The translations under genes were made by a program, and so were the position numbers. A stretch of 48,399 nucleotides of DNA from a virus: IMG/VR virus record IMGVR_UViG_3300044797_000086, positions 1 through 48,399 of that record; one strand, written 5' to 3'. Position 1 is the first letter of the stretch. Every line of letters starts with the position of its first letter. The notes beneath the pieces are model-generated. The model was not told the origin of the DNA and did no database searches. It saw only the letters and a list, made by a program, of their open reading frames with translations. This document shows positions 1 through 28,121 of this stretch, one piece after another.

Positions 1-247
1 CGCCGGCGATAAACCCCGTGAAGCGCACGTCGGCGGTCGTGTCGTAATTGGTTTCCAGGCGCTCGGTGCGGATCGGCGTGATGACGCAGAAGTCTGACCC
101 GAGCGGCTCGGGCACGCGGTTGGCCTGGCCAGCGATCACCGATACCGGATTGCCGTCGCTGCCTGTGGCCGGGAGCACCGTCTTCAGGAAGTTGACGAGC
201 GCGGCCTGGACCGTCGACTGGTTTGGAGTTGGGAGGCTGCCGGCCAC
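1..247 (-). CDS. Phage tail terminator/neck protein, LIC_12616-like (3' part off the edge)
   Basis: The reverse strand reads an open frame of about 82 residues that continues past the left edge. It contains the string NRVPEP, then a hydrophobic strand (SDFCVITPIRTERL) and DVRFTGFIAG. This pattern is typical of the LIC_12616/neck-terminator proteins that close the tail tube of contractile-tailed phages, usually followed by a DUF3383 tail sheath. I chose the GTG start because a GAGG ribosome site lies five bases upstream, inside the end of the preceding fibre gene. Family assignment is by recognition of the motif pattern; only the N-terminal part is visible. Confidence 0.6.
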   Translation of the reverse strand, partial: MAGSLPTPNQSTVQAALVNFLKTVLPATGSDGNPVSVIAGQANRVPEPLGSDFCVITPIRTERLETNYDTTADVRFTGFIAG

Positions 248-254
248 ACTGACC

Positions 255-677
255 TCATGCCGCGACGAGCAGCGTGCTCGTGGTCAACGCCGTTCCCGCC
301 TTCTTCCCGGTGTTCGCGGTGATGAGGGTGCCGTCGCCGTTGTAGTAATAGCTCGATCCTGGCGAGAGACCCGAGAGGCCGCTGGCGACACCGTTCTGCT
401 GAATCGTGACTTTGGCGCCCTCGCTGGCGGCGGCAGCCGTAAAACCAATGGGGCCGTTGTTGATTGGGTTGAATTTGATAACGCGCGCATACGGCACGTT
501 GTTGAAGTCCACAAGCGTCGCCAGTGCCCGGCTGCTGTCCAGTCCGTACAGCCAATAGGCGGTCAGGCCCTGATGCTTAAGTGGATCGGACAGTTGCGTG
601 TCGTTTCCTCCATAGATGGCAAAGTTTGCATCGCTGAGAATGAAGCCGCCGTCCGCGAAGCCGGACGCGACCGTCCA
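255..677 (-). CDS. C-terminal part of tail-fibre protein, separated from its N-terminus by a frameshift
   Basis: About 140 residues, beginning at WTVASGFADGGF and including AIYGGNDTQLSDPL, AYWLYGLD and a C-terminal SYYYNGDGTLITA module. It looks like the usual C-terminal domain of phage fibre proteins, but no start codon exists between an upstream in-frame TGA (at about 723-725) and this domain. It lies in the -1 frame relative to the long ORF immediately upstream; joining the two at about base 677 gives a continuous protein of about 532 residues. Either a real disrupted fibre, a frameshifted expression product, or a one-base sequence error. No classical slippery heptamer is seen. Confidence 0.7.
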   Translation of the reverse strand, partial: WTVASGFADGGFILSDANFAIYGGNDTQLSDPLKHQGLTAYWLYGLDSSRALATLVDFNNVPYARVIKFNPINNGPIGFTAAAASEGAKVTIQQNGVASGLSGLSPGSSYYYNGDGTLITANTGKKAGTALTTSTLLVAA

Positions 678-1852
678 GCGACGGTCAAGTAATGCGGGCT
701 TGAGCCGGTGAAGCTGTAGAGATCAGACGGGCTGAGCAGTAGCTGCTCGAATGTGAGGGCCGATGGGGTTACCGTGCCGACAGACGCCGACGAGACGCCT
801 TCCTCGTTGCTGATGCTCCAGATCAAAAAGTGCGTTGCGTCCATCGGAGCAAACACTCCGAATGGTCCGTCACTCTGATCCCACGAAGCGTTGTGCCCCA
901 AGGTCAAGGTCGTGCCGCTGATGCCAACAAGGTACACCTCATATCCGCCAATTAAATAAGACGTAACCGCCGCCTGCGTCGGGCTCAAAAGCATGACCGC
1001 ATTGTTGCCGGAGCTTTGAGCGACGCTTATGGTTAGCGGCGTCCCGAATGAGACATCCGTCCCGGACACCGTTGCGACGACGAGCTTAAGAAAGTTGCTG
1101 TCGTTTCCATCCTGATAGGCAACCAGGATGTGGGTGGCGTCCATTGTGGCTAGGGCCACGGGGTTGCCGTTCACATTGGCGGTGATCTCGCCAGGAGAGC
1201 CAAGGGTGATCGTTGTGCCGGACACCGATCCGATGACGAGTTCGTTCTGATACGTCAATGCAAAATGCGAAGCGTCCAGGGCAAAGATGTTTAGGCAACA
1301 TGGGTTCAATGTAATGCTTGCCGCAACGGCCTCGACCGGGGTGCCGTAGGTGATCACGTTGGCTGCAATGGATCCGACGACGACGTTGAGGTTGCCCGTG
1401 TTCGGGTCCGAAAATGCCAGCACGAATTTGGAGGCACTCAGTACCGCCGCTTGAACGCTCCCGCTGTTGCCGTTCCAAAGCTGGGCATTTGCGCTCGGCC
1501 CTGAAGTGTCGACGGCGCCGACCGACACGACATTGTTGCTGTCAATTGAACCAGCCTGCGCGCTAACACCAGCGATAAAAGAAACAAATTGCGAAGGACT
1601 GAGGATGAGGGTGCCAATGGTGTTGGAGCCCTGACCATCAAACGTTACGGCCGTTCCCGGGACCTGAGGGGCCGGGCCCCAGGTCTGCGCGGCGTTGCCG
1701 CTGGAGTTGATCGAGACGCCGGTGCCTGCGGCGATGTTGGTATCGGCGGTAAGCGTGGCATTGCTGCCGCCTCCGCCACCGCCCTCGCCCGGGACGGCGC
1801 TCGACGCAACGACAAGACCGCTCGCCGCGTCTTGAACAAGAAATTTCGACAT
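563..1852 (-). CDS. Tail-fibre protein, beta-propeller-like repeats (N-terminal part)
   Basis: The start ATG follows an AAAGGAGG ribosome site. The N-terminus (KFLVQDAASGLVVAS, then a run of Gly) is a short anchor-like module that recurs in the 48-residue gene at 16338-16484. It is followed by six or seven repeats of about 45-50 residues with the pattern (S/D)A(S/T)(H/K)F(V/A)L.Y ... V.V..SGT.(I/V)..G.P, which suggests a beta-propeller. The last about 37 residues after LTVAG look out of frame; the natural continuation is found in the -1 frame from base 677. Probably a structural, receptor-facing fibre or side-tail protein; the exact location on the virion is not shown by the sequence. Confidence 0.75.
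   Translation of the reverse strand: MSKFLVQDAASGLVVASSAVPGEGGGGGGSNATLTADTNIAAGTGVSINSSGNAAQTWGPAPQVPGTAVTFDGQGSNTIGTLILSPSQFVSFIAGVSAQAGSIDSNNVVSVGAVDTSGPSANAQLWNGNSGSVQAAVLSASKFVLAFSDPNTGNLNVVVGSIAANVITYGTPVEAVAASITLNPCCLNIFALDASHFALTYQNELVIGSVSGTTITLGSPGEITANVNGNPVALATMDATHILVAYQDGNDSNFLKLVVATVSGTDVSFGTPLTISVAQSSGNNAVMLLSPTQAAVTSYLIGGYEVYLVGISGTTLTLGHNASWDQSDGPFGVFAPMDATHFLIWSISNEEGVSSASVGTVTPSALTFEQLLLSPSDLYSFTGSSPHYLTVAGRSRPASRTAASFSAMQTLPSMEETTRNCPIHLSIRA
670..685. repeat. Perfect 6-bp hairpin at the fibre frameshift
   Basis: Inverted repeat accgtc-cagc-gacggt with a four-base loop. It sits exactly where the fibre reading frame changes by -1, so it may have promoted a deletion, or may have caused a read or assembly error. 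Confidence 0.6.
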
Positions 1853-1868
1853 CTCTTGATCTCCTCCT

Positions 1869-2522
1869 TTAGAGCGATCCCGGCACGCAAGGCACCGTGT
1901 AGTACAGCACCGTGATCGTCATGTTCAGATCGCCACCGAGGTATGGAGTGCCCGAACCATAAACCAGCGGCAATCCAGCCAACTCATCATTGTCGACCAC
2001 GAAGTCATTCGCGTAGGTTCCGTGTGAGGCCGCGGTCTTGTTTTTGGTTGCGGCAGTTGCCGGAACGCTTTGGTCTCCGGTATCGGCCTGAAACCCGCCA
2101 ATGGTACCGTAGACTAGCGCACCCGTGCCGCCACTCGTGTAGACTCCGGTGCCGGATACAATCGAATAGGTGGCACTGATCACGATCAGGGCCTGATCTG
2201 GAGTTGGCGGTGGTACCACCAGGATCGGATTCGTGTTGAGGGCAGCGAACTCGGCCTCGGTGATGGTCACTGAACGAAGGCTCACGCCGGCGCCCGAGGC
2301 CGGGGCGCTGATCACGCCAGCGTCATCAACGAACGTGGTGATGTTGTCGGGCTGTACCTGGCCGGGCGTGGAGGCCGTGGCCAGGGGCGAGACCGCGGCT
2401 TTGACTTGAGCCCAGGTCCAGAGCACATCCTCGTTTCCCTGGCGCACACCGAACGCCTGATCGCTCGGCGCCGGAGGATCGCTCGCCTGCTCAACCTGTG
2501 AAAACCGGAGTTGCCCAACCAT
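1869..2522 (-). CDS. Phage structural protein next to the fibre
   Basis: 217 residues. The N-terminus (QAFGVRQGNEDVLWTWAQVKAAV) resembles the short 'which term of the table applies' head found also at the N-terminus of the collagen-like fibre at 3971-7342 ([20 protein letters not shown]). The remainder is Thr/Gly/Val-rich beta sequence with a C-terminal GGDLNMTITVLYY strand. It lies between two other virion genes with only a 16-base gap to the fibre, so a role as fibre, fibre base or baseplate decoration protein is inferred. I do not recognise a catalytic motif. Confidence 0.65.
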   Translation of the reverse strand: MVGQLRFSQVEQASDPPAPSDQAFGVRQGNEDVLWTWAQVKAAVSPLATASTPGQVQPDNITTFVDDAGVISAPASGAGVSLRSVTITEAEFAALNTNPILVVPPPTPDQALIVISATYSIVSGTGVYTSGGTGALVYGTIGGFQADTGDQSVPATAATKNKTAASHGTYANDFVVDNDELAGLPLVYGSGTPYLGGDLNMTITVLYYTVPCVPGSL

Positions 2523-2529
2523 CTCGACC

Positions 2530-2826
2530 TCAACCGACCCGCTTGTAGTAGGCCACGTTCAAGACAGGGCCGCCGGCGGCCGTGATGAACTGAATCGCGC
2601 CAAGGTCTCCGCTGTAGAGGAATGGCGCCGAGCCCGAATCGATCAAGATTCCCTGCGAGGAGGATGGGGGCGTGCCGTCGTCGCGCCAGCGCACTCCAGA
2701 ACTGGACCCGTCGATCGAGATCAGCGCGGTATTGGCCGTCGCCGGCACCGACAGCGGCGACGCCGACGCCAATGCGCCGGAGCCGATCTGCTGATAGCCG
2801 AGTGGAACGTAATTCTGGCTAATCAT
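2530..2826 (-). CDS. Small phage structural protein
   Basis: 98 residues from the ATG at 2826 (MISQNYVPLGYQQIGSGAL). It has the pattern ...ANTALISIDGSSSGVRWRDDGTPPS...SGDLGAIQFI, which is typical of small beta-rich decoration or fibre-associated proteins of this phage type (the family usually contains RWRDDGT.PT). There is a one-base gap after the preceding gene, so the two are likely translated together. A longer reading frame exists upstream but would overlap the previous gene by 38 bases, so I preferred this start. Confidence 0.65.
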   Translation of the reverse strand: MISQNYVPLGYQQIGSGALASASPLSVPATANTALISIDGSSSGVRWRDDGTPPSSSQGILIDSGSAPFLYSGDLGAIQFITAAGGPVLNVAYYKRVG

Positions 2827-2827
2827 T

Positions 2828-3115
2828 TTATGCTCCTGTTGGTCCGCTCGGTCCTGAGGCGCCACTTGGGCCGTGAGCGTGGAGTCCCGTGCGTCGACCG
2901 GCTGGCTGTTGCAATTGCTGCTTGAGTAGTGCGAGTGCCTGACGTGCGGCCTGCACGTCGGAGCCCTCAGCCGCGGCGAGCTGCTCTCGGAGGTTTTTTA
3001 CCGTCGCCATCGCCGTCGTCAGTTGCGCGCGCAACGCCGCCGTGCTGGCCTCGCCGGCGTCGATGATCGCCTGCAGGCCGGCAACGGTTGAATTGATCAC
3101 ATCTTGCGTCGCCAT
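2828..3115 (-). CDS. Small coiled-coil protein with a collagen-like tail
   Basis: 95 residues. Residues 1-65 form a long heptad-like helix (DVINSTVAGLQAIIDAGEA...LTTAMATVKNLREQLAAAEG), followed by a Gln/Leu helix and a short Gly-X-Y collagen-like tail GPSGASGPSGPTGA. Such proteins usually trimerise; it may bridge or stabilise fibres. Two adjacent ATGs overlap the stop of the sulfotransferase (ATGATG with an internal TGA); a GAGGAG site is spaced best for the second (3115). Confidence 0.65.
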   Translation of the reverse strand: MATQDVINSTVAGLQAIIDAGEASTAALRAQLTTAMATVKNLREQLAAAEGSDVQAARQALALLKQQLQQPAGRRTGLHAHGPSGASGPSGPTGA

Positions 3116-3963
3116 CATGCGACTCCTCTCTTCGGCACCTCTTGGGGCGGCACGAACACAATAACAGGAACGCGCCGCGTATTCGCTTTGTTGTTTCGCC
3201 AGAAGGCATCGCCGGAGAAACGGTTGAACAGCGACGGCGGCAATATTGTCTGGCGCGGCCGCCACGCTACCGGACCTTTCACGCGGTGCAGGCCAGGCGT
3301 CCCCAGCGACATGTCGAAGTCCTCGGCTTCGTACTCGACGTTCTCGAAGTCGTGGGCGAAGAGGTCCTCACCCAAGAACTGATAGAGCACTTTCATTGTC
3401 GGGCCCGGATGGCGCGCCAGCGCTTCGTAATCCACCAGGATCAACCGGTCTGCAAATTCGCTCCAGTAGGCCTCCTGCAGCGCGTTGATGGCGTAACCAA
3501 CGAGGCCATCCGGGGACGCGAGACCGTTCACTCGGCTGAAGACGGTTCCCGCTGACGAAAAACCGAAGATCCCGGACAGGTCCAACGGCTGTGAGCGCAG
3601 CAGGCGCTCGACGGAGTCCATGATCCAGCCCACATCGCGCACGCAGCAGATCATCTTGCTGGCCGGGAACAACTCGGCGATGAGCGGTAGCTTCGCACAC
3701 CAGGATCGGCTTGTATCGAGAACGACCTTTGATTCCAGGTCGTCGCCATAGAAGCTCCTGAAGAGTCCCTGCAGGATGTCCCGGCGCTGGCGCTCGCTGA
3801 TCAGGACTCCGCTCTCAGACTTGCGACTGGTCGCCTCCTGCATTCGCATCACCAGGTTAGCGAGCGGCGACGACATGCCGGCGACAAATCGCGGGTTCTG
3901 GCGGAGGATGGCCGCCAGCAGCGTGGATCCAGATCGCGGCAGTCCTGAAATGAAATGCAGCAT
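3115..3963 (-). CDS. Sulfotransferase family protein (PAPS-dependent)
   Basis: 282 residues. The 5'-phosphosulfate-binding loop is clear at residues 6-16 (SGLPRSGSTLL) and the 3'-phosphate-binding segment follows at about 105-122 (ICCVRDVGWIMDSVERLL, with Arg109 and Ser117). The C-terminal half (DYEALARHPGPTMKVLYQFLG) matches the usual Sulfotransfer family end. Members transfer sulfate from PAPS to sugars, lipids or proteins. It is embedded between the collagen-like fibre (8 bases upstream) and a coiled-coil fibre-associated protein (1-bp overlap), so the acceptor may be a virion glycan or the host surface; this is inference. An AGGA site precedes the ATG. Confidence 0.85.
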   Translation of the reverse strand: MLHFISGLPRSGSTLLAAILRQNPRFVAGMSSPLANLVMRMQEATSRKSESGVLISERQRRDILQGLFRSFYGDDLESKVVLDTSRSWCAKLPLIAELFPASKMICCVRDVGWIMDSVERLLRSQPLDLSGIFGFSSAGTVFSRVNGLASPDGLVGYAINALQEAYWSEFADRLILVDYEALARHPGPTMKVLYQFLGEDLFAHDFENVEYEAEDFDMSLGTPGLHRVKGPVAWRPRQTILPPSLFNRFSGDAFWRNNKANTRRVPVIVFVPPQEVPKRGVA

Positions 3964-3970
3964 GTCTGTC

Positions 3971-8049
<4,079 letters not shown>

Positions 8050-8056: not shown

Positions 8057-10036
8057 CTACCCCGCGATCAGCGCCGACGTTTCGATTTCAAACGTCGTAT
8101 CGGCGGATGTCGCCACCACCTCCCCGATGCCCTGCCACTTGTAGGTCCATGTTCCTGAAACAGAAGGCGTCAGTGTGTAGCTGTAAATACCGACGTCGAC
8201 GCGCGTGAGGTCCGGCGGCGATGGGTAGTGCAGGTTGGTCACGCTTTGGTCTGGCGCCAGGACGATCAGCGTAACCTCACTCGGATCGGCGGGCTCGCCA
8301 TTCTGCAGGTTCACGAAAGTGCCCGTGATCTGGATGGCCGTATCGATCTGGTAAGTCGCCATGGTCGGGCCGCCCAAAGCCGGACTCGTGCTTGTCTCAA
8401 TGTCGAAGAGAGCAGCGTCCCCGGCAAACGCTTGCCATAGCGCCGTATCTTGCCCCGTCGCCGACGCTTGAGGGAGTGCGTCAGTGCCCGCGGCCGAGAA
8501 CAGGGCGAAGTCGAGCGCTGCGACCGCCCACAATGCGAGGTCATTCGTAAAGGCAAAGTTCGGCAGCAGCGGGAAGAACTTTTGGACGATCTCCAGCCAG
8601 ACGGCGGCGTTCGATCTGACTACGGCTTGGCCCCATTCCAACTGCACGACGCCGTCCGCGTGCATCTTCACCAGGCCGAGAAACTCGAGGGGGGCGCCGG
8701 CGTCGCTCCGGACGCTGAGTTTCATTTCCAGGTTGGCGCGTGTGTCCGCACGCATGGCCGTCAACGTCTCCGACGGCACCCGATCGTCGGCACGTGCGCT
8801 GGTGAGACTTTCGGCGGCCGTGCTGGTGTTGCGGCTTACCTCCAATAGGATTTCGAGCGGGATCGCCGAGTCACTGCGTACGGCAATGCTGCCGAGGCTC
8901 TCCAATGGGACGGCGCTGTCGATGGCCGCCGCGATCGCGCTTTCGGTGGGAGCCGAATCGTCGGCGTGCCAGCTACCCAAACTCTCTGCGGGCGCGGCCT
9001 GGTCGCGGGCAACGGTCGATCCGATCTCAAGGATAACGGCCCCATCGTTGACGATGACGATCGTGCCGATGATCTCCGCGGGCACAGCCGAGTCACCGTG
9101 CACGCCGAGCAGCGTCTCGACCGGGGCGGCTGCGGACGCGGTGGAGGCCTGCAGGATCTCGGTCGGGGCCTGGGCGTCTGCGCGCTGCGCGCCTGTGCTC
9201 TCGAGGGGTGCCAAGGTATCGGCTGCAGCACTCGTGATGGACTCTGCCGGCACGGCGCCATCCGCGGCCACGCCCAGGCCGGCCTCGAGCGGGACCGCGG
9301 CGTCTGTGGTGCTCCCAAGCAGGCTTTCGAGAGGGGCAGCCGCATCGGCGGTGGTTGTCCCCAGGAATTCCAGGGGCACGGCCCCATCAAAGTCGGTGCG
9401 CTCGGCACCGAGGATTTCCAATGGCGCGGTCTGATCGCGCGCTATGGCGGCTAGGGCCTCCGCCGGTGCGACGGAATCGGCGTGGGCGCTTGCCGTGTCT
9501 TCCAGCGGGACAGTGGCATCACGGCTCAACACTGTGGCGCTCTCGAGGGGTATGGCGCCGTCGCTCCGGGCCGAGGACCCAACGATCTCAGTCGGGACCG
9601 CTGAGTCTGCCCGTTGCGAGCCCAAGCTCTCAGTGGGCGCGGTGGCATCGCTCCGGGCCGAGGTTGTGGCTTCTATCGGGACCACGGAGTCGGCCCGGGT
9701 GCTGCCGAGGCTTTCGGCTGGGGCAAGCTCGTTCCCGCGAACGCTCGCCCCGATCTCGGTCGGTGCCAACCGATCGATCACTTGGCCTGACAGGCTCTCG
9801 ATCGACGCGGTGTCGTCGAGGCGTAAGCTCTGCAAAATTTCCGTGTAGACGTTGTCGTCGAATGTCAGGCTCGCAAGGGATTCGGCGGGGCCGCCGCTGT
9901 CCGCGGTTACGGCCGTCAGCGTGCTGGCGGTCTCGTTGAGGTAAACCGGACCGGTGGAGATGGCCTGGCGGGTGCCGGTCTCATTGACATAAACCGGGCC
10001 GCCGGTACCCCACGATATAGCCTGCCTCGTTGCCAT
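8057..10036 (-). CDS. Phage surface protein with about 31 degenerate 14-residue repeats and an Ig-like C-terminal domain
   Basis: 659 residues in three parts. Residues 1-39 hold two RQAIS..GPVY(V/L)NET segments, common in phage fibre-attachment sequences. Residues 40-485 are about 31 repeats of about 14 residues with consensus (S/A)-R-A-D-(S/A)-x-(A/V)-P-(L/T/A)-E-(S/I)-L-G-S. Residues 486-659 include hydrophobic aromatic strands and a domain beginning MATYQIDTAIQITGTFVNLQNG which matches the common phage Ig-like/DPs.VTL domain (EPADPSEVTLIVLAPDQ). The C-terminal domain could be translated separately from its internal Met. The repeat probably forms an extended beta stalk; the function is unknown. 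Confidence 0.75.
   Translation of the reverse strand: MATRQAISWGTGGPVYVNETGTRQAISTGPVYLNETASTLTAVTADSGGPAESLASLTFDDNVYTEILQSLRLDDTASIESLSGQVIDRLAPTEIGASVRGNELAPAESLGSTRADSVVPIEATTSARSDATAPTESLGSQRADSAVPTEIVGSSARSDGAIPLESATVLSRDATVPLEDTASAHADSVAPAEALAAIARDQTAPLEILGAERTDFDGAVPLEFLGTTTADAAAPLESLLGSTTDAAVPLEAGLGVAADGAVPAESITSAAADTLAPLESTGAQRADAQAPTEILQASTASAAAPVETLLGVHGDSAVPAEIIGTIVIVNDGAVILEIGSTVARDQAAPAESLGSWHADDSAPTESAIAAAIDSAVPLESLGSIAVRSDSAIPLEILLEVSRNTSTAAESLTSARADDRVPSETLTAMRADTRANLEMKLSVRSDAGAPLEFLGLVKMHADGVVQLEWGQAVVRSNAAVWLEIVQKFFPLLPNFAFTNDLALWAVAALDFALFSAAGTDALPQASATGQDTALWQAFAGDAALFDIETSTSPALGGPTMATYQIDTAIQITGTFVNLQNGEPADPSEVTLIVLAPDQSVTNLHYPSPPDLTRVDVGIYSYTLTPSVSGTWTYKWQGIGEVVATSADTTFEIETSALIAG
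8582..9919 (-). repeat. About 31 x 42-bp degenerate coding repeat
   Basis: Consecutive units such as TRADSVVPIEATTS, ARSDATAPTESLGS, QRADSAVPTEIVGS and ARADDRVPSETLTA repeat throughout the protein. Units vary from 13 to 17 residues; the fixed positions are an acidic residue (D) and P-x-E. The DNA is much more diverged than the protein pattern, so the repeat is old and maintained by selection. Confidence 0.85.
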
Positions 10037-10043
10037 CCTGCCC

Positions 10044-12698
10044 TCACAGGACTACGAGCGGGTCGAAGATGGTGGTGGTACTCAGCACTGCCATTTTCAC
10101 CGTCGTGTAGACGTATCCGGCGAGTTGCGGCGTGAAGTTCACCGACATCGAGAACCGGCAGCCGGCGCGGAAGGTTGCGGCACCATCGGTAACCGTCCCG
10201 CCATCGATCGCGGTGGCGTAGCCCGCTGGCTGTGCACCGCTTGTCGAGCCACTGACCGTGCAAAAAAAGACGCGGTTTGGGTTGGCGGCGATACCGATCG
10301 CGGCGCCGACCGCGTAGGTGTGCGAGTTCAGACGCGCGGAGACGCCCGTTCCCCAATTTGAGGTACTGTCGGCGGTGAGTGGCGTTCCTGCAGCGAGATT
10401 GTTGGCCTTTGTGCTCGTGGCAAACGATCCGGTGGGAGCGCCCGATGATCCGAAGTATTCGCACTCGATCCAGATTTGGTCGTTGTTTGGTACCGCCGAG
10501 CCGTTGATGATGCCGTAGACGGTGGCGCTGGTCGCTCCGGTGCCGCTCCACTGTCCGATTGGGTTGGAGAGAAATGGCCATATCCAGGTCGAGTTCGCTG
10601 TGGTTGTGATCTGTTTGCCGACTGGAGTGGTTCCGTCCGAGGCGCCGCCTTGGCGGTAGATGGACGTGCTGGTCGTGAGCGTACCGGCGATCGTGTAGAC
10701 TTCCTCGCGGTAGGTGGTACCGCCATTGTCTGAACTCACCACCGAGACGCGGCTGTCGTAAGTGCCGGGGGCGGCAGCCACCGTAACTCCGGACCCCAGG
10801 TTGCAGTCGACCAAGGTCGCGTTCCATCCGGGCTGCTGATTGCTGATCTGCGGAAAGAGCGTGCCGGTGATGGCGCTGAGATCCAAGCCGCTGAACAGCG
10901 TCTGGAAGCCGGCCGGATTGTTATTGGAAAAGCAGAGTGTGGTCGGCACGGCGGAGCCGGCGGCAAGAATCGATCCGGAACCGTTCCTCCATGTCCATTT
11001 GGCGGTGCTGGCGATAGTCTGTGAGGCGTTGCCGAAATAGACTTGGCAGTTGTTCCAGGTGTCAGTGAGTTCTCGGCCGCTCAGCATGTTTATGGCGCTG
11101 CCGGCATTCGTGTTTTTGATTGCGAATGTGCAATTGTCGTAAACGACATCGATCGCGGTGATGCCAGATCCGGAGCCGGGATATAGGCTGACAGAAGCCG
11201 TAGGGCCGGTGCCAGCATTGAAAGTGAAGCCGTTGAAGTATTGCACGCTCGTGCCGCCGATCGTGGCCAAGTTGATTGACGTCCAGGTGGATAGTGAGGC
11301 CCCTGCCAACAGGTCTCCGGAGCCGGGTGGTGTTGATCCTGGCGCGTTGTTAACGCTGTAATAGTTGACAGGAAGTGGTGTGGTGCCGAGCGCGCCGACG
11401 CCGGTGAAGACGAGATTCTGCGCTTCAGCATGACTTGCCGAGACGAAGACGCTGTTGCCGGCCTGCACCCAGTTCGTGGTAGCTGCGTTGAGCAGCCGCG
11501 AGTGCGGTGAGTTCCAGATCGAATACTTGTTCACCGCCCCTAGCGTCACCCACGTCGCCGACGTGTCGGTGGTTGTCGCGCCCGTGGTCGTGTAGGCGCT
11601 CCAGCTCGGCTCGGCGCCGGTGCCGCTCATGTTGCCGGCCACCGTGCACAGCAGCAGCAGCGTGCCCGCGGTATTCTGGATCACCTGCCCAAGCGTGGCC
11701 GCTGCGGTCCCGGCCCGGTATGCGGCCCACGTCGGTGTGTTCGTGATGTCGCCGTTGAGCGCGGCGATGCCAGTGGCCTCCGCCCACTTCACGGTGTTGT
11801 CTGTGACCAGACCGCCGCGCGTAGTCACCCACGCCGGCTCTGAGGCGCCGGTCTGGCCGGTGCCTGATGTCGAGTTGTAGCAGACGAAGCAGCGCTCGTT
11901 GCCGATCGGCACGGTGTTGTTCTGACGGACGATGTCGCCGGCGACGTGGCTTGCGCTCGCGGCCCACAGCGTTACCGCGTTGTAGCCATTGGCAGCAGGC
12001 GACGAGGCCCTGATGCCGATGACGATCAGTGCGACGCCCGTCGGCGTCACCGACAGCGTCGGATTGTATTGCGATCTTCCTTTGCCATAGGCGATCAGGG
12101 CCCCGCCGCTGCTTTGCGCGCGCGTTTGAGCGGTCACGCTCGTCGCGCCGGCTCCCCATGATGCGGCCACCGCTTGCGTATAGGTCGCCGCGGCCGAGTG
12201 CTGCACAAAGCAGGCGCCGATAATGAGGTCGCCGGCGACTGTCGCCGCTCCGCTCGTTAGTGACGGCGAAGAGCTCGCCGCCGAGAGCGTGGCCGTCACG
12301 TTCGCGTCCAGCGATCCGGTGCCGGCGGTCGCCGACATGCCCGTCGCATAGAACGCGGTGATGGAGGCCTGAGTGCCCGTCGTGTGTTTGGTGTAGGTGA
12401 GTGTGCCTGAGACCACGGCCGACATGTTCGGGCAAACGAAAACCATCCCGATACCGGTGCCGTTGACCGTCTGAGAACTGGCCAGTGTGTAGTTGTTGGT
12501 ACCGTCGGAGAGGGTGCCGGCCGTCGTCGATCCGGCCTCATTCACCAGTGCTACGCCATAGGCGCCGGCTGGGATGTTGGCGTAGGTGGCGTTGGTGATG
12601 GTGACGGTGGCGCCGGCAGCGTTGTTGCCGCTGCCGAGGTCGGCGAGGGAGGCCGATGTCCCGCCGTTGACGTACCACGCCTTATCCGTGAGGGCCAC
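10044..12698 (-). CDS. Large phage tail/fibre protein with carbohydrate-binding-like modules
   Basis: 884 residues, GTG start with AAGGAG six bases upstream. The N-terminal about 230 residues are a beta-rich domain (DKAWYVNGGTSASLADLGSG). They are followed by two clear and one C-terminal copy of a module with the pattern W.A...V.AGD.V......F.C...G.SG..EP.W......G..V.D....W, seen in phage tail proteins with binding roles. A beta-helix-like section follows (NGFTFNAGTGPTASVSLYPG...VDCNLGSGV) and a conserved C-terminal end. No hydrolase motif can be named with confidence. It lies directly upstream of the 14-residue-repeat protein (7-base gap). Confidence 0.75.
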   Translation of the reverse strand: MALTDKAWYVNGGTSASLADLGSGNNAAGATVTITNATYANIPAGAYGVALVNEAGSTTAGTLSDGTNNYTLASSQTVNGTGIGMVFVCPNMSAVVSGTLTYTKHTTGTQASITAFYATGMSATAGTGSLDANVTATLSAASSSPSLTSGAATVAGDLIIGACFVQHSAAATYTQAVAASWGAGATSVTAQTRAQSSGGALIAYGKGRSQYNPTLSVTPTGVALIVIGIRASSPAANGYNAVTLWAASASHVAGDIVRQNNTVPIGNERCFVCYNSTSGTGQTGASEPAWVTTRGGLVTDNTVKWAEATGIAALNGDITNTPTWAAYRAGTAAATLGQVIQNTAGTLLLLCTVAGNMSGTGAEPSWSAYTTTGATTTDTSATWVTLGAVNKYSIWNSPHSRLLNAATTNWVQAGNSVFVSASHAEAQNLVFTGVGALGTTPLPVNYYSVNNAPGSTPPGSGDLLAGASLSTWTSINLATIGGTSVQYFNGFTFNAGTGPTASVSLYPGSGSGITAIDVVYDNCTFAIKNTNAGSAINMLSGRELTDTWNNCQVYFGNASQTIASTAKWTWRNGSGSILAAGSAVPTTLCFSNNNPAGFQTLFSGLDLSAITGTLFPQISNQQPGWNATLVDCNLGSGVTVAAAPGTYDSRVSVVSSDNGGTTYREEVYTIAGTLTTSTSIYRQGGASDGTTPVGKQITTTANSTWIWPFLSNPIGQWSGTGATSATVYGIINGSAVPNNDQIWIECEYFGSSGAPTGSFATSTKANNLAAGTPLTADSTSNWGTGVSARLNSHTYAVGAAIGIAANPNRVFFCTVSGSTSGAQPAGYATAIDGGTVTDGAATFRAGCRFSMSVNFTPQLAGYVYTTVKMAVLSTTTIFDPLVVL

Positions 12699-12745
12699 GT
12701 TCGCTCCTTCGCGCCCTCACCCCGGTAGGCGCCAGCGCGCGGTTT

Positions 12746-13864
12746 TTAGGTCGTGGACCCGTTTGTGCGCAGGTCGGACGTTCCGTTGTAGGTCGCGGTG
12801 CCTGCCGGCAGCGTGAGCCGCCACCAGATGCCTTGCGAGACCGCGGCACTGTTGCCCGCCGGCAATGAGCCAGGGGACGCGATCACGCTGATCGGCGACG
12901 GCTGGGTGACGAACGTCAGCGACGACGAGTCTCCGTTGGTCGGCAGCGTCTGCCGGTTGGCCGAGGTCTGCGTGTCGTTGAGCGCCTTGGTCAGTGCGAG
13001 GTCGAGGAGCGCGCCCGCCGGCAGCGATGGGGTCTCGCTCAGCACCTCTATCGTGGCGCCCAGTAGCGATGTCGTGGTGTTCGTGTTGACCACGAATCCT
13101 TTCTCGTAAAACACGCGCTGTGACCCGCCGGGGATGTCGGCGGTGGCGGTCGCAAAGATGCGTGTGATCGCCACCACGGGATTCGGCGATATGTCGAAGA
13201 GCATCCCGTAGGCGATGTCGTAGGTCGAGGTGTTGTCCGGGAGCGGGCTCCAGTCGCGGTTGACCGCGACCTCGTCGGCCCCGTACGCGGCCGAGCTGTA
13301 CTGCGCCGAGATCATGCGCAGCTGCCCGGCGCCGGTACCACCGGTGATCCTGATGATGGCGGCCAAGCCCGCGTAAGTGAGCGCGGCCACAGCGGTGCCA
13401 TCGCCCGATTGCAAGTGGAAGAGCGGCGGGGTTGTCCCTGTCGTGTTCGCGGCGCCCTGGGCGGTGTGCCCCGCAATCGCGCGGGTGTGAGCCATCACGG
13501 CAATGTCGCCGACGGCGGCGGTGCCACCCGGATTTGAGAGGCCGGCAATGCTGCCGCCAGTGATGACGCCGGCGAGCAGGCGCTGAAATTGCTGCCCTCC
13601 GAACGCGTTCGCCTGGACGGCGGTGCCGTTCGTGGTCGCAAACGCCGGCGTCTGGACGGTGCCCGTGGAATCACGACCTGTGACCTGGACGTGGACACCG
13701 GTGTCGCTCGATGACGAGGAGACGATATCGAGCGTGCCCGTGGCTGGGATGTCGTAGAAGCTCACCCTCTTGGTGAAGTCGACGGCGCCGCCGACGGTCT
13801 GGCCGTCGGCCTCCGGCATGTCGGCCGACCCGTAAATAGTTACGTTGTTTGGCGTAACTGTCAT
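12746..13864 (-). CDS. Phage structural protein (MTVTPNNVTIYGSA family)
   Basis: 372 residues. The start, TPNNVTIYGSADMPEADG, is the standard beginning of a structural protein widespread in phages with this head-tail module; the rest alternates short beta strands (FYDIPATGTLDIVSSSSSDTG, RVFYEKGFVVNTNT) with SGDG and GTGAGQLR.I turns. A GGGGAG ribosome site precedes the ATG and a 14-bp palindrome lies just upstream of it. Structural role inferred from family and position between head-tail genes and fibres. Confidence 0.7.
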   Translation of the reverse strand: MTVTPNNVTIYGSADMPEADGQTVGGAVDFTKRVSFYDIPATGTLDIVSSSSSDTGVHVQVTGRDSTGTVQTPAFATTNGTAVQANAFGGQQFQRLLAGVITGGSIAGLSNPGGTAAVGDIAVMAHTRAIAGHTAQGAANTTGTTPPLFHLQSGDGTAVAALTYAGLAAIIRITGGTGAGQLRMISAQYSSAAYGADEVAVNRDWSPLPDNTSTYDIAYGMLFDISPNPVVAITRIFATATADIPGGSQRVFYEKGFVVNTNTTTSLLGATIEVLSETPSLPAGALLDLALTKALNDTQTSANRQTLPTNGDSSSLTFVTQPSPISVIASPGSLPAGNSAAVSQGIWWRLTLPAGTATYNGTSDLRTNGSTT

Positions 13865-13876
13865 TTTAGCTCTCCC

Positions 13877-13890
13877 CGCGAGCGCTCGCG
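13877..13890. repeat. 14-bp perfect palindrome upstream of a structural gene
   Basis: CGCGAGCGCTCGCG lies immediately upstream of the ribosome site of the gene starting at 13864. It could be a hairpin that affects translation, or an operator; no T-tract follows on either strand, so it is not a standard terminator. Confidence 0.6.
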
Positions 13891-13939
13891 CACTCTAAGG
13901 GAGGCTGTTCGCCTTCAATACTCTTGCGTTGACGTACTT

Positions 13940-14293
13940 TCAGTAGGAGCGGTGCGAACGCAGCGTGCGCTTGGCGCGCAGCGGGATCATGGATGTGTTC
14001 ACGTCCTCAGCAGTGTACTTATCGCCCGAAAGCCATTTGGCCGTCAGCTGGCGAACGTTGTGGGATAACATTGCGTCCACTGCAGGATCGTTAGGGTTTA
14101 GGTCCAGCTTGATGCACTCTTGAATGATCGGAAATGCGACGACGTTGCCTGGCAATTCGGTCATCGTGCGGCGCATAAGCGGTCCGAGCATATCGAAGGC
14201 ATCCATCTCGTCCTGACGCGACCATGTGATGGTGACCTTTCGTTCCTGGCCTTCGACCGGGATTTCGATCTTGCCGTAGGCCTGCGCGCTCAA
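13940..14293 (-). CDS. Hypothetical phage protein coupled to the glycosyltransferase
   Basis: 117 residues with an ATGA overlap with the end of the upstream glycosyltransferase-like gene. It reads KIEIPVEGQERKVTITWSRQDEMDAFDMLGPLMRRT and then a helical stretch. The beginning is like a small beta sheet; no family recognised. Phages of this type often have a short tail-assembly chaperone-like protein here, but the sequence does not prove it. Confidence 0.6.
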   Translation of the reverse strand: MSAQAYGKIEIPVEGQERKVTITWSRQDEMDAFDMLGPLMRRTMTELPGNVVAFPIIQECIKLDLNPNDPAVDAMLSHNVRQLTAKWLSGDKYTAEDVNTSMIPLRAKRTLRSHRSY

Positions 14294-15363
14294 CCGTTCA
14301 GTTCCTTCTCGATATAGCCGTCGTAGGTTGGCGGCGGTCGATCGGCGTCGAGGGTGACTACCGCGTCTTCCGGGATCGGCGTGTCGATGGTCACTGCGCC
14401 GTTAATCGGCGCCATCGGCGTTTCTTGGCTCACGGACGGAGCGCCTCCAAACGTTCCCTGACCGTCGACTACGCCTATTTGGGCGAGCGCTTGCCCAAGG
14501 CAAATATCCGGATTCATCTTCGCCTTAAACTTCGCGATCTGGTCCGCGTAGATGCCGCGCCAGGCCATGCGGGCGATGTTGGCCACGTGGATGAAGCCCT
14601 CGATGGTGTCGGTAAAGCGAACCACCTCGTCCCACGGCTTTGCGAGGTCGTGGGGCTCGGCGACGACCGGCCGGCCAATCGTGAGCGCGGTGTTGCACCG
14701 GCTGGAGGACACGAGTCCCATGGCGTCGAACTTGCGCACCTGGACGATGACCTTGGCGTGCTGCATGGCCTCGTCGCGCTCGGCCTGCGTCTTGAAGTCG
14801 GCGATGAGGCGGACGGCTTTGGCGAGGCCCGTCGCGTTCGCCAGGCGCTTGAGGATCTTGCGCCGGCGGGGCGTGAGCGATCCATAAAACCCGAATTCGT
14901 AGTCTGGGGTGATTCCGCGATCGCGCATGAGCGTGGGCGCGTATCCGAGCTCCGCCGGCGCCGACGGCGCGAACTGGCTGAACCACTTCGTAACGCGGTC
15001 GCCGGGCACGAGATGCAATATGCCCTCGCAGTGCTTGGCCGCTTCAGGAAATATCTTTTGTCGCCAGATCATTTCCTTTTGGGTGCCGTGGTTGAATCCC
15101 TTCTCAGTTGGCTCCTCGGTCGCCAGGATGATGAAGCGCGCCCCTTCGCCTTTGGCGCGCGCCATCAACTCGATCACGGGCGGAGTGAAGCCCTCGATGA
15201 TGATGTTGATGCCGTTTTCCTTGTTCAGGAACTGGTCGTTTTTCGGGTTCCAGATCGCTTCATGGCCCAATGCCTTGAACTGATGGCCTTGCACGCCGAT
15301 AATATCTTCGAGCGATCGCTGGCCGAGCGAACTGTGATTGCCTGTCCAATATAAAAAACGCAT
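14290..15363 (-). CDS. Glycosyltransferase-like protein (CgeB/GT4-like) inside the structural operon
   Basis: 357 residues. The N-terminal half has the Rossmann-like pattern of GT4/CgeB proteins; the central motif FGFYGSLTPRRRKILKRL and later CNTALTIGRPVVAEPHDLAKPWDEVVRF (the donor-side region) match those of the protein at 26129-27304 (FCFFGGMTTRRQRVL; CQRPVVAETRSPHAQRGWENAVRF), so the two are paralogues. The enzyme presumably transfers a sugar to a virion or DNA acceptor; the substrate is not known. It sits between the regulator at 15375-15740 and a small protein with a 4-bp overlap. The last 60 residues are a low-complexity Pro-rich tail. Confidence 0.7.
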   Translation of the reverse strand: MRFLYWTGNHSSLGQRSLEDIIGVQGHQFKALGHEAIWNPKNDQFLNKENGINIIIEGFTPPVIELMARAKGEGARFIILATEEPTEKGFNHGTQKEMIWRQKIFPEAAKHCEGILHLVPGDRVTKWFSQFAPSAPAELGYAPTLMRDRGITPDYEFGFYGSLTPRRRKILKRLANATGLAKAVRLIADFKTQAERDEAMQHAKVIVQVRKFDAMGLVSSSRCNTALTIGRPVVAEPHDLAKPWDEVVRFTDTIEGFIHVANIARMAWRGIYADQIAKFKAKMNPDICLGQALAQIGVVDGQGTFGGAPSVSQETPMAPINGAVTIDTPIPEDAVVTLDADRPPPTYDGYIEKELNG

Positions 15364-19757: not shown

Positions 19758-20708
19758 TTACCCGAGCGGGTGACTGTCGATCTTCACGAGTTGGCCCGGC
19801 GCGCCCACGCTCATCGCGACCCACTTGGTCTCGACGTTGCCCAGGGCGTCGATCGTGCCTGACGCCACCAGCGTGTTGTTGTTGACCACGAGGGTCGAAC
19901 CGCTGCCGCCGGTGCCGCTGATCAGTTGAGTGAGTGCGCTGCCAGCCACGACGCCGGTGCCCGAGAGTGTGTCGCCGACACCGAAGCTGCCGGTGACGGT
20001 GCCGCCGACGGTGAGAAGCCCGTAGGTGAACGACAGCGTCTGGCTCGCTGCGGTCTGCAGCGGGATGCTGACGTAGTAGGTGCCCACGCCGCCCGGCGTA
20101 CCGCTGATCTGAGAAATGACCTGGCAGGTGGTGACGCCGCCGGTGCCGGTGACAGTCGCTCCGGGGTAGATCGTGCCGGAGCCGACGGCGGTGATGGTCA
20201 TCACGTCGCCGGTAATCGAGCCGGTGGCGGATGCGGTTTCCGGGGTGATCGTCGACGCGGTGGAGGTCGCGCCCGTGTTCGGCGTTCCGGTTGGCGCAAA
20301 ACTCGCCAGTCCGTTTGCGAAGTTGGCGTAGGTCTTGTTGCCGAGGGCCGAGGTCGTCGTGCCGTTGTTGACCACCCAGAAGCAGCCGCCGGTGAACAGG
20401 GTCACCATGAAGCCGACAGGGATCATCATCGATGCATCGAGGAGGTACGTGGTGTTGAGGCCCTGCAGCGCGCGGCCGATGAATCCGGAGACCGGGCCTG
20501 CTCCCGAATTGAGCACCGTGGTCGGCGCGCTGTTCGGATCGGCGGGCGGGTAGGCCCAAGCGAAGGCACCGACCTGGACGCCGCCGACACCCGCAACCAG
20601 GCCTCCGGGGCCCGCGTCGTAGGTGAAGTACGGGTTGGTGCTCGCGAAGTCACCAGCGACGCCCTGCGCCGGCTGGTTATAGACTTGCTGCTGGAAGCCA
20701 CCGCTCAT
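19758..20708 (-). CDS. Gp24-type structural cement protein with an inserted beta-repeat domain
   Basis: 316 residues. The N-terminal part (QVYNQPAQGVAGDFASTNPYFTYDAGPGGLVAGVGGVQVGAFAWA) and the end (VETKWVAMSVGAPGQLVKIDSHPLG) are those of the Gp24-like capsid cement family, usually about 190-200 residues. Between about 150 and 295 lies an insertion of two related beta modules (TAVGSGTIYPGATVTGTGG...ISGTPGGVGTYYVSIPLQTA and VGDTLSGTGVVAGSALTQLISGTGG). Cement proteins strengthen the shell; the insertion is likely exposed on the outside. Confidence 0.8.
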   Translation of the reverse strand: MSGGFQQQVYNQPAQGVAGDFASTNPYFTYDAGPGGLVAGVGGVQVGAFAWAYPPADPNSAPTTVLNSGAGPVSGFIGRALQGLNTTYLLDASMMIPVGFMVTLFTGGCFWVVNNGTTTSALGNKTYANFANGLASFAPTGTPNTGATSTASTITPETASATGSITGDVMTITAVGSGTIYPGATVTGTGGVTTCQVISQISGTPGGVGTYYVSIPLQTAASQTLSFTYGLLTVGGTVTGSFGVGDTLSGTGVVAGSALTQLISGTGGSGSTLVVNNNTLVASGTIDALGNVETKWVAMSVGAPGQLVKIDSHPLG

Positions 20709-21971: not shown

Positions 21972-22283
21972 TCAGGCCTCTAGCAGCGTCTGCATCTCCT
22001 GGAGCGCCCGAAGCGCGGCGTCCACTGTGTCGGGGGCGTAGCAAATGACGGCCAGCAAAACGCGCGCCGATCCGTCGGGAAGACGCCGGCGTTGCTCCCA
22101 CTGACGGAGCGTGCTCAGATTGAATCCGAACCGCTCTGCAAAATCCGGCTGACTGAGATCCATCGTCTCACGCAACTGCCGAACGTTGAGCAGTGGCGTC
22201 TTTTGTTGGATCGGCTCGCCGTCTTCGCCGTATTCTAGCTGCGCATCCCCATAGCCAGCAGCTCCCGCTCGATCACCGCCCAC
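21972..22283 (-). CDS. XRE/HigA-type HTH regulator embedded in the capsid operon
   Basis: 103 residues. GTG start with GAGG seven bases upstream, overlapping the end of the protease gene by 49 bases. The helix-turn-helix is clear at about residues 36-62 ([35 protein letters not shown]), a layout like HigA/NadS-type antitoxin regulators. No RelE/HigB-type toxin gene lies next to it. Placed between the prohead protease and scaffold, it may control expression of this module; an inverted repeat follows it. Confidence 0.75.
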
Positions 22284-24313
22284 TGCATATCCTCAATGCT
22301 GTCGCCGACCACGACATCGTCGCCGGCGCGACCGTCTTTCACGAGGGCGAGATGATTCCCGACAATTTCACGCATCACCCCGTCGTAGTGCACACGGTTC
22401 CCCTCTTCGTCCTCATATTCGCCGGTCGTCGTCATGTCCGGCCGATAGTGATACCCGCAGCTCAACTCTTTTTTGCGCTCGGTCTCGATGTCTTCGATGG
22501 AGTCCTTGGTCCAGAAATAGAGGCTGTTGTCGAGAAATGGCTTGTCAAAGTTTGCATCGGTGCCGGTGGTGCCGATGATGTCCCAGGCCTGGTGATCCTC
22601 GACCGAGACCGGAACGTGACGGCCCAGGATTTGGATTCCGTTGAAGGTGGGCGCGGCCTTTCGCAACTCCTCCGGATCTCGGAGCAGGTTGTAGACCTTG
22701 TTCGGATCCAGTCCGAGTTCTTGCCATCCGGGAATTTCTTTGCCGCGATAGGGATTCACGCACGCCCGCGAAATGTGGGCCACCTCGACGCGCATGCGGC
22801 CGTCGCGATCGAAACTGCGGACCGATTCTCGATCGAGCGCCATGGTGGTGTTGGCATCGAGTGCGCAGTCGACCGTCGTCTCTAGGTCGCCGTGACCGTG
22901 CGGGAACGGCTTGACGTCGGCATCGTCCGGCTCGTTCTCAAATGGGCCCTTCTCGATCTTGGATTCCTGCCCGCGGCACCAGGCGTTCCAGGCTTTGCCG
23001 CCGTCGCCGTCTTCCGCGGATACGAGATCGCGCTCGGCGACCACGCCGGCGCCGTGGTGCGCGATCGTATAGATCAGCTTGCGCTCGTCATCGTTTGGCT
23101 CCCGGCCGTTCTCCTCCTCGAAGGTCTCGAGCAGCGTGCGCAGCGCCTTCCACTCGGCGGTCTCGTGCGCCTTGAGGCGCTCATCGACCTGGACCGTGCG
23201 GCCGCGGATCTCAGCGGTCTCGGGCACGTTCTTGTTGCGATACATCGTGGAGCCGTCTTTCGACATGCACGACATCCACGGGCCGTCGTGGCTCGAGTCG
23301 ACCGCTACGCCGTCGGCATCTTCGGCGCCCCCGAACTCGCGCTTGCGGATGGTGTCAGCGCGAGCGGCCAGCGCCTCGTGGCCGTGCATGCGGGCTTCGC
23401 GGGCGGCCGCGAGCAGCAGCTTGCGGTTATAGGCCCAATCGTCGCCCTGTTTCTCCTTGACCGGGTACTTGCGGCTGGAGGGCATGAGGAATGCGGCGGC
23501 CGGCATCTCTTCTCGGTGCCCGCTGCCTACGCGGCCGATTTCTGACTTATCTCGCTTGGTCAGTTTACCGGCCGCTTCCGGTGATTCGTCGCGCCCACCG
23601 GTCCCGGCGAACTTACCGTCAGCCTCGCGAGGTTGTTCGCCGGAGGACTTCAAGCCGTTCTTTTTGATCTCTTTGGCGTCGCGCTCGGTGCGCTCGAGGC
23701 GGCTCGTGATATTGAGATTGCGCGGCATGTGGATCTTCGATCCGAATGGAGCATCCTGTGCTTGGTGCTCCTCCTCGGCCGCTTCCTCGGCGAAGAACTC
23801 CATCAGTCCATTCACGAGGCCGCGCCACCCTTCCGGGGTCATATCGTCGGCGGTATCCATCGCTTCCTGTAGTCGCTTGCGCGCTCCGGCAAAGGCCGGC
23901 ATCCCGGCGTTGGGCGTAGTGGCGATCGGCATGGCCGCGTCCTCCGCGATCAGGTGGATGGTATCTCTCAAGCCCGGGTGCAGTGGCTCGGGCGGGGCAT
24001 CGAGCGGCGCCCAGGCGTACGCAATGTTCTCGTGGTCCAGCGTCGGGATGAAGGGCGAGTTGATGCGCTGCCGGTAGATCGCGTAGAAGCCGCTGCCGTC
24101 GATCAGTGTCGGTGCTGCAGTGCCTTCGGGTGCCATCCAACCAGTTTCTTCTCTCGTTTCTCTGATGGCGCCGATTTCGGGCGGTTCCTTCGGCTCAAGC
24201 ATGCCGCCTGGCAAGCTCCAGGTGAGGGGATGGTCGTGGCCCGCAGCCCGCTTGAGGAAAAGGGTCATCTTATCGGGCAGCACCAGGGCAAGCCCGGCGG
24301 CCTCTGCACTCAT
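22235..24313 (-). CDS. Prohead protease (DUF2213) fused to an N-terminal Nudix hydrolase domain
   Basis: 692 residues from the ATG at 24313 (ATGA overlap with the upstream gene). Residues 1 to about 165 are a complete Nudix domain; the Nudix box runs from Gly37 to Trp59 with the expected G-x5-E-x7-REUxEExGU order (GGMLEPK...RETREETGW). About 248-335 look like a DUF6582-type segment, about 340-455 is a conserved phage domain ([19 protein letters not shown]), and about 490-675 is the DUF2213 maturation protease, with candidate catalytic His566 and Ser618 ([13 protein letters not shown]). DUF2213 proteases process scaffold and capsid. A Nudix domain on a capsid protease is unusual; its substrate is unknown. 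Confidence 0.85.
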
Positions 24314-24579
24314 TTTTGGGCCTGTGCCTGCTGCGATCGTTGCTGGGCGGCGGCCCGCCGCTGTGCACGCACAATGGACTCCCGCGCTTCTGGCGAAAGG
24401 TTCTCGACGCAGCCGGGAATCATCGCCAATCGCATCAGGTACTCGTCGGGGCAATTTTTCCAGCCGCCCGTGGGGTTTACGAACCACGACCGCATGAATC
24501 GGAAGAAGTAGACGCCGCAACCCAAGAGCGCCTGGCGCCGCTGGCGAACTGAAGGGATGTAGTGGACTTGTTCCGACAT
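24310..24579 (-). CDS. Hypothetical protein upstream of the protease
   Basis: 89 residues from ATG at 24579, ending in a 4-bp overlap with the Nudix-protease start. Aromatic N-terminus ([35 protein letters not shown]) followed by a basic Gln/Ala-rich helix ([26 protein letters not shown]). Coupled translation with the protease suggests a role in head assembly; no family recognised. Confidence 0.55.
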
Positions 24580-24736: not shown

Positions 24737-24952
24737 ATGTCGGAGTACGAACCTTGCGATGTCATTTACCGCGCGATGGATGGCTGGTGCGCCATCGTCA
24801 ACGGCAAGAAGATCGGCCCTTACCCCTATCGACCGCAGGCGCTGCGTGCGGCCGTGAGCGAGCGTCGGGGCCTCAACGAGGAGGCGTTGGCCCATAGTAG
24901 GACTTCGTCTCAAAATATGGAGCGTGGCACAGCCGATCGATCTCCTGCTTGA
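24737..24952 (+). CDS. Small hypothetical protein on the plus strand
   Basis: 71 residues from ATG at 24737 (MSEYEPCDVIYRAMDGWCAIVNGKKIGPYPYRPQALRAAVSERRG). The central part resembles small phage proteins with a DUF2188-like layout (short beta strands, 'NGK.IGPYPY' turn and one helix). It overlaps the end of the minus-strand glycosyltransferase by 80 bases in a convergent arrangement, so the last part may be noise. Confidence 0.5.
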   Translation: MSEYEPCDVIYRAMDGWCAIVNGKKIGPYPYRPQALRAAVSERRGLNEEALAHSRTSSQNMERGTADRSPA

Positions 24953-27304: not shown

Positions 27305-28110
27305 CCCCGTCGGCACCCCTCGACGATCACGTCGACTCTCGATTCCCAGTCTTGGGGTGAAACTCTGATATGGTCAACATTGGGGTGATCGTTGCCGGCG
27401 AACGTGGAACAGTGGCCATAAGGCATCGTCTGCTGCAGGCCGAAAAGGTAGGGGCAGTCGGGGCCGAGTTCGCGGATGCAGAGGGTCTTGTGGCCGCCGA
27501 TGCCGGCCTCCAGCAGGATCGACATGACGCCGCACTGAGGGCCGATGATTTCCTGCGCGCTGGCGCAGTGCCTCAGCAACTCCTCGAGCGACCATGACGG
27601 CGAATTCGAAGTCACTTCGCGCCCGCTGCTTCGAAGCCGTTCGGCAAGTTTGCTGTAAAATGGCCATTCCATATTTGGCCACGATCGCGAACTGGTGATC
27701 ATCACAACGTCTCGCGTCAGCATGACGTTGAGGCCATTTGGCTTCTCCATCGAGGCGTCGGGCGGCAACTGCATCAGCGCCCGATACATGTCAGCTTGGC
27801 TCACCCTCGGCTTGATCGTGAGTTGGTCGAGGCGAGTTGGCGTTTTCACAAAGTGCGGGTGGACATAGATGGGGGCGCCGTCGACGATCGCGTTATCGTA
27901 GGTCTGCCAAAGCGCGCGCTCGCCCGCCTCGGCCATCGCCACGATCCGCTCGTCGGTCTGGTGCAGCAGGCCAAACCACTCGGGGATGAACTTCTGAGAA
28001 GGCTTAACGACGACGACCGCGTGCACGTTGTGGTGACGCTGAAAGGCGCGCGCCAGCGAGCAAACAAGATAGGCGTCACCAACGCCATAAAGAGCTACGA
28101 GCGGTATCAA
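27280..28110 (-). CDS. Glycosyltransferase, GT9-like
   Basis: 276 residues from a TTG at 28110, chosen because an AGGAGAG site lies eight bases upstream and because the protein then begins MIPLVALYGVGDAYLVCSLARAF, matching the start of its paralogue at 24873-26132. It retains IGPQCGVMSILLEAGIGGHKTL and KLAERLRSSGREVTSNS. Its end overlaps the start of the next gene by about 25 bases. Substrates unknown. Confidence 0.65.
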   Translation of the reverse strand: MIPLVALYGVGDAYLVCSLARAFQRHHNVHAVVVVKPSQKFIPEWFGLLHQTDERIVAMAEAGERALWQTYDNAIVDGAPIYVHPHFVKTPTRLDQLTIKPRVSQADMYRALMQLPPDASMEKPNGLNVMLTRDVVMITSSRSWPNMEWPFYSKLAERLRSSGREVTSNSPSWSLEELLRHCASAQEIIGPQCGVMSILLEAGIGGHKTLCIRELGPDCPYLFGLQQTMPYGHCSTFAGNDHPNVDHIRVSPQDWESRVDVIVEGCRRGWLANGDV

Positions 28111-28121
28111 ATAAAACTCTC

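Follow-up and report, generated by a model that had tools for sequence, protein, structure and literature searches.

What does a sulfotransferase gene do in the structural operon of a phage, directly beside a gene for a giant collagen-like protein? We study this question through the sequence, predicted structure and gene context of a viral stretch of 48,399 nucleotides (IMG/VR record IMGVR_UViG_3300044797_000086, positions 1 to 48,399; hereafter the window). The initial annotation of this DNA, made from its letters, suggested that the enzyme might sulfate a fibre glycan or a receptor on the host. Phage sulfotransferases have been described as auxiliary genes whose function is unclear (PMC10580990), and in a search with partial coverage of the literature, which leaves absence unproven, we found no paper tying one to fibres or virions.

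The enzyme and its predicted cofactor site

The gene at 3115-3963 (minus strand) is an intact reading frame of 282 codons, with its ATG at 3963 and its TGA at 3117-3115. The product matches PF13469 (Sulfotransfer_3; 4.2e-17, 63.6 bits against a cut-off of 27), PF00685 (Sulfotransfer_1; 1e-5, 25.5 bits against a cut-off of 22) and phrog_27463 (7.5e-36, covering residues 2-261), and both the PAPS-type identity and the coordinates given in the initial annotation hold. An AF2 model built from an alignment of 38 sequences reaches a pLDDT of 93.9 and a pTM of 0.90. Its best PDB matches in Foldseek are sulfotransferases without exception: human TPST2-PAP comes first (4.7e-9, TM about 0.54), and the TPSTs are followed by polyketide-linked sulfotransferase domains and then by heparan sulfate 3-O-sulfotransferases. 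A profile search with the enzyme agrees, with TPST1 at 6.6e-16.

TPST1 and TPST2 are thus the nearest solved structures, and they share with the window enzyme the PAPS loop and an R...S pair. The predicted 5'-phosphosulfate-binding loop, P9-R-S-G-S-T-L15 (3919-3939, minus strand), aligns with the PRSGTTL loop of the TPSTs, and its P9, R10, G12 and T14 are invariant in 38 homologues. Equally invariant is the predicted 3'-phosphate-binding pair R109 ... S117 (3613-3639, minus strand), aligned with the RDG...S segment of the TPSTs. The family further conserves E119, Y179, D217, an invariant H226 (3286-3288, minus strand) and an invariant signature, R86-x-W88 (3700-3708, minus strand). Cofactor site and fold are both intact and of the sulfotransferase type, and by family and fold the product is a PAPS-type sulfotransferase.

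Judged by its catalytic residues, the enzyme nevertheless appears not to be a TPST. The Glu and Lys that we take to be the catalytic residues of the TPSTs are replaced: at the Glu position stands S31, where 29 of 38 homologues have S or T and a single one has E, and the Lys position, in the NKDP segment, is T84, immediately N-terminal of the R86-x-W88 signature (K in 6/38). The enzyme also differs from TPST1 and TPST2 in having no evident signal or membrane segment, and identity is about 20%. With T84 in place of the TPST Lys and no counterpart of the Glu, the catalytic arrangement may not be that of the TPSTs, and the activity of the enzyme is presumed. It is not of the NoeE type either, scoring 20 bits with the NoeE model (an NCBIfam equivalog) against a cut-off of 500.

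A cassette inserted in the head-neck module

The neighbours of the gene, all on the minus strand, explain why we call this locus a cassette. Upstream, at 3971-7345, lies the gene of a collagen-like fibre or decoration protein, the candidate substrate, which bears out the initial annotation's giant collagen-like neighbour: it has 1124 residues, matches PF01391 (Collagen, 2.7e-19) and tail-fibre PHROGs, and contains 70 G-X-Y triplets in three blocks (9, 15 and 46), mostly GPT, GAT and GST. Downstream, at 2828-3118, is a 96-aa protein, Ala/Gln-rich and helical-looking, with a short collagen-like end (C-terminal sequence GPSGASGPSGPTGA). The genes had been described as having overlapping ends; this is true downstream, where the sulfotransferase stop and the following start share 4 bp (ATGA, 3118-3115), but upstream a 7-bp gap (3964-3970) separates the enzyme from the collagen-like gene. 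Three more genes follow, each without a Pfam or PHROG match: a small protein (2530-2826), an uncharacterised protein (1869-2522) and a protein that is fibre-like by its GSTN-rich composition (563-1852).

The borders of this group reveal where it sits. The head genes of the window resemble those of Popoffvirus-like myoviruses, whose gene order, as in Aeromonas phage 56 and Pantoea phage PA-1, runs from the MCP region through a small gene, a structural protein, Neck1, gp63 and gp64 to the sheath, with gp63 (annotated 'head protein') and gp64 overlapping by 4 bp. The window retains this order: MCP at 18603, a gp59-like gene at 17979, a gp60-like gene at 17476, Neck1 at 15802, a gp63-like gene at 7342-8049 (minus strand; phmmer 4e-24 and 4e-20, phrog_1912) and a gp64-like neck/tail gene at 2-247 (minus strand), truncated by the window end. 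The last assignment rests on a modest phmmer match to PA-1 ORF066 (4.8e-5) and alignment z values of 7.0-8.7 against shuffles; for the gp63-like gene, no relatives in IMG/VR were confirmed. Two insertions interrupt the order. One, at 8057-15363, separates Neck1 from gp63 and includes a decoration-like protein at 10044-12698 (minus strand; weak match to phrog_20658, head decoration). The other, of about 7 kb (248-7341), separates gp63 from gp64 and holds four genes besides those for the collagen-like protein and the sulfotransferase. The description 'embedded in the tail-fibre operon' is thus inaccurate: the gene is not among distal tail or baseplate genes, and the locus is, by gene order, a fibre/decoration cassette inserted in the head-neck module, before the sheath position, between gp63-like and gp64-like genes. 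Elsewhere in the window, 22235-24520 (761 aa) has a C-terminal head maturation protease domain and an N-terminal part that weakly matches NUDIX and portal PHROGs.

Relatives of the enzyme and the genes around them

Relatives of the enzyme are encoded in at least 594 viral-contig matches in IMG/VR. Among cultured phages the family is nearly confined to cyanophages, of which three carry it; it also occurs in marine single-cell viruses. Outside viruses, a sample of 200 genomes from Acetobacteraceae, the family of Acidisphaera, contains it in 39, and a sample of 385 from the class of this genus contains it in 6; chromosomal homologues in Acetobacteraceae are as much as 60% identical to the enzyme of the window. 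That enzyme forms a group in the tree with those of loci L014 (62% identity) and L017 within a mixed phage-bacterial clade, and the phage or bacterial label switches on supported branches at least four times, which shows that these genes have been transferred between phages and bacteria. L014, the closest phage relative, encodes four genes upstream of its sulfotransferase a homologue of the window's decoration-like protein 10044-12698 (phmmer 2.3e-48). One Acidisphaera homologue (L005:9659-10504) has a rearranged or degraded 5' part, and that genome has two more intact copies.

Now we consider the genes around these relatives, with 133 loci reduced to 62 groups at 80% identity. A gene is called fibre-like by the composition of its product (G+S+T+N of at least 0.36, D+E+K+R of at most 0.20, length of at least 120 aa). 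Applied to a stretch of T4, this rule picks out gp37 and gp48, passes over gp34-36 and catches none of the listed enzymes; in Synechococcus phage S-SKS1 it flags three of three annotated tail or fibre proteins and both immediate neighbours of the sulfotransferase. Some structural proteins of other kinds, such as T4 gp48 and window 19758-20708, also receive the label, and some fibres escape it.

Rather than lying at random places, the possibility that the initial annotation had named as counting against its idea, the homologues are strongly concentrated beside fibre-like genes. Such a gene lies within five same-strand genes in 49 of 59 sulfotransferase clusters, which are partly non-independent and whose genes are simple ORF calls, as against 1/45 clusters of a control enzyme (Fisher 2e-18) that comes from the same collection and probably sits in a non-structural region. 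The fairer control is random positions in the same viruses (n=20), where a fibre-like gene is near the sulfotransferase in 20/20 and near the random position in 4/19; in these 20 viruses 24% of sulfotransferase-neighbouring genes are fibre-like versus 3.3% of genes elsewhere. The position of the sulfotransferase relative to fibre-like genes is not random, and these genes are commoner upstream of it than downstream.

The pairing with collagen-like fibres, proposed as something to look for in other phages, occurs in some relatives. L018 and L020-L023 have, in order, an SU10-like portal, the sulfotransferase, collagen-like genes and a gene that we read as a family-2-like glycosyltransferase; L100 has a 1627-aa neighbour containing collagen; and among the Pfam families of downstream neighbours Collagen occurs most often (8 proteins). 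In L002 and L006 a repeat-rich fibre-like gene immediately precedes the sulfotransferase. Some relatives also have genes for PAPS supply and glycans nearby. The commonest neighbour family is a P-loop kinase of the APS-kinase type (19 clusters), the kinase of PAPS synthesis; beside the L103 sulfotransferase the kinase is a complete APS kinase (2.3e-62), and the viruses of L026 and L107 encode a full-length one at another place, the matches in the remaining clusters being weak and partial. Other clusters contain GT9, GT2 and GT25 glycosyltransferases, NodU-like carbamoyltransferases, 2OG-oxygenases and methyltransferases. In L133 (5995-7752) the sulfotransferase is fused in one 586-aa frame to TPR and a glycosyltransferase-like domain, homologues of which are separate sulfotransferase neighbours in six other clusters; of this fused region the TPR alone is confirmed, and a protein of TPR plus an uncharacterised domain (A9) matched the PDB in its TPR part only. 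Many proteins in L001:6056-16377 share a short C-terminal motif (..SYS, ..SYT, ..SYE, ..NYS), possibly a common C-terminal tag.

The cultured phages S-SKS1, S-SRM01 and S-SCSM1 encode Sulfotransfer_3 proteins of the same family, linked through phrog_27463 at about 28% identity. S-SKS1 is found by tblastn with the window enzyme (3e-29). The S-SRM01 gene is surrounded by glycosyltransferase and nucleotide-sugar epimerase genes, and that of S-SCSM1 (fold match 3.3e-13) sits amid DNA-metabolism genes. Unlike the window gene, none of the three was seen directly beside a collagen-like gene.

In the Acetobacteraceae, the gene is stand-alone in the chromosome in all 16 sampled loci, outside phage structural operons, yet a Gly-rich or secreted protein lies at most two genes away in 6/16. 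These six are the only such proteins among the 228 genes of the 16 loci (hypergeometric 5e-4), and one of them has a PEP-CTERM sorting motif. Very long Gly/Ala/Asn-rich proteins of 1457-2467 aa, at L287:9099-16499, L296:3-6830 and L297:2783-7156, adjoin chromosomal sulfotransferases. Phages and bacteria thus share a theme, a sulfotransferase that adjoins a repetitive, Gly/Ser/Thr-rich surface protein.

What the enzyme may sulfate

Because such a protein adjoins the enzyme in phages and bacteria alike, we favour modification of the repetitive surface protein or of a glycan that it carries. Our main reading, to which we give a probability of roughly 45%, is that a PAPS-dependent sulfotransferase travelling with phage fibre cassettes sulfates the virion's fibre or decoration proteins, most likely via an O-linked glycan. 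The enzyme would move among phages together with surface-fibre cassettes, and would draw its PAPS from the host or, in some relatives, from a phage APS kinase; our search found no APS kinase in the window, and here PAPS would therefore be host-made. The most likely acceptor of the sulfate would be a short glycan O-linked to Thr or Ser of the collagen-like GPT/GAT/GST repeats, and the outcome would be a fibre with negative charge and altered adsorption, stability or antigenicity. We infer catalytic activity, substrate, glycan and biological effect alike; gene context supports a part in the modification of a virion or surface structure, and in this way it partly supports the initial annotation's interpretation.

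The window itself has sugar genes, among them a nucleotide-sugar epimerase (32761-33693, minus strand; PF01370 1.1e-33, phrog_540) and a DegT-type sugar aminotransferase (35293-36477, minus strand; PF01041 1.1e-54). The latter directly adjoins the second of two GIY-YIG homing endonucleases (36449-37243), in a region with the epimerase and methyltransferase genes. No recognised glycosyltransferase adjoins the sulfotransferase in the window. An enzyme-like protein within the structural operon (14290-15363, minus strand), a paralogue of 26129-27316 (alignment z 31), looks glycosyltransferase-like by reading only: it has no HMM or PDB match, and its single-sequence AF2 model is useless (pLDDT 34). 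We do not adopt a glycosyltransferase identity for 14290-15363, 26129-27316, 24873-26264 or 27280-28182, which is without Pfam, PHROG, phage or PDB support; the GT9-like proteins that neighbour other sulfotransferases are not similar to 24873 or 27280. These four form two paralogue pairs of uncharacterised enzymes within 24873-28182 and beyond (24873/27280 and 14290/26129), and a small protein from the L001 and L046 sulfotransferase clusters is similar to the C-terminal end of 24873-26264. A PAPS-reductase-like protein (28122-28883, phrog_424, below the PF01507 cut-off) was set aside as a PAPS source, which it would not be; a homologue lies on the same contig as a sulfotransferase in L029. The window further contains an E1-type TPP enzyme that seems split (38058-40331), with an E1_dh-like part (39654-40331), a weakly Transket_pyr-like part (38058-38591) and the other GIY-YIG endonuclease between them (38819-39685), and a BchE/HpnJ-type B12-binding radical SAM protein (45757-47247), unusual for a phage.

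The main and serious rival, which we consider unlikely but keep in view, is that during infection the enzyme adds sulfate to a glycan of the host surface, LPS or capsule, altering or masking the receptor so that other phages are excluded or release is aided. Recognition genes and surface-altering enzymes would then co-evolve in one variable region, which would account for the proximity to fibres. Rhizobial NodH, NoeE and LpsS sulfate surface or signal glycans in a PAPS-dependent manner, and NodU-like carbamoyltransferases adjoin several phage relatives. The sugar genes of the window fit this rival, as do the neighbours of many relatives, which include LPS-type genes such as those for GT9, GT25 and NodU-like carbamoyltransferases as well as GT2, methyltransferase and 2OG-oxygenase genes, and so does the closeness of the enzyme to chromosomal genes of Acetobacteraceae, which have no virions. 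Bacterial LPS sulfotransferases exist (LpsS, PMC12445080), and the 'host recognition cluster' of pelagimyophages, in which tail fibres are combined with LPS-type glycosyltransferases, has been interpreted as modifying the host surface (PMC7029224). That cluster is comparable in placing fibres and glycan-modifying enzymes in a variable region inside structural genes; it differs in that its description mentions no sulfotransferase, while the cassette here contains a collagen-like gene and is inserted in the neck module. Against host-surface sulfation, the gene lies within a structural operon beside a fibre gene in the window and in L018-L023, presumably late expression would leave exclusion little time, and the bacterial gene is near Gly-rich surface proteins rather than recognisable LPS loci.

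Could the enzyme instead be a phage counterpart of TPST and act on the fibre protein directly, at Tyr or at the hydroxyl of Ser or Thr? The TPSTs are nearest by sequence and by fold, but we think this improbable and rank TPST-like Tyr sulfation below our first choice: the enzyme lacks the catalytic Glu and Lys, and none of the 24 Tyr of the collagen-like protein has at least three acidic residues within five positions (there is one such Tyr in 8057-10036). For these reasons we favour a glycan over Tyr itself as the acceptor, and also because the Thr of GPT repeats is known to be glycosylated in collagen-like proteins of bacteria. It is very improbable, in our judgement, that the gene is host-acquired cargo (a moron) acting on small molecules or lipids, unrelated to the virion and placed at a tolerated insertion point; the tree that mixes phage and Acetobacteraceae genes speaks for such an origin, but the concentration beside fibre-like genes is far above that of the control enzyme and of random positions in the same viruses.

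Sulfation of fibre or decoration proteins of the virion itself remains our preferred reading, and its extension to the family is a proposal that we hold tentatively: tailed phages may sulfate their own virions through a mobile cassette of fibre and sulfotransferase genes, with PAPS from host or phage and sulfated glycans on collagen-like or repetitive fibres, and the related bacterial enzymes may likewise act on Gly-rich surface proteins. The link to fibres, seen across many uncultured viruses and against two controls, turns an auxiliary gene into a specific hypothesis, that of a sulfated virion surface. Synechococcus phage S-SKS1, whose sulfotransferase is flanked by fibre-like proteins, offers a cultured test system. 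If the hypothesis is true, sulfation would be a new virion modification, one that would affect adsorption, charge and recognition.
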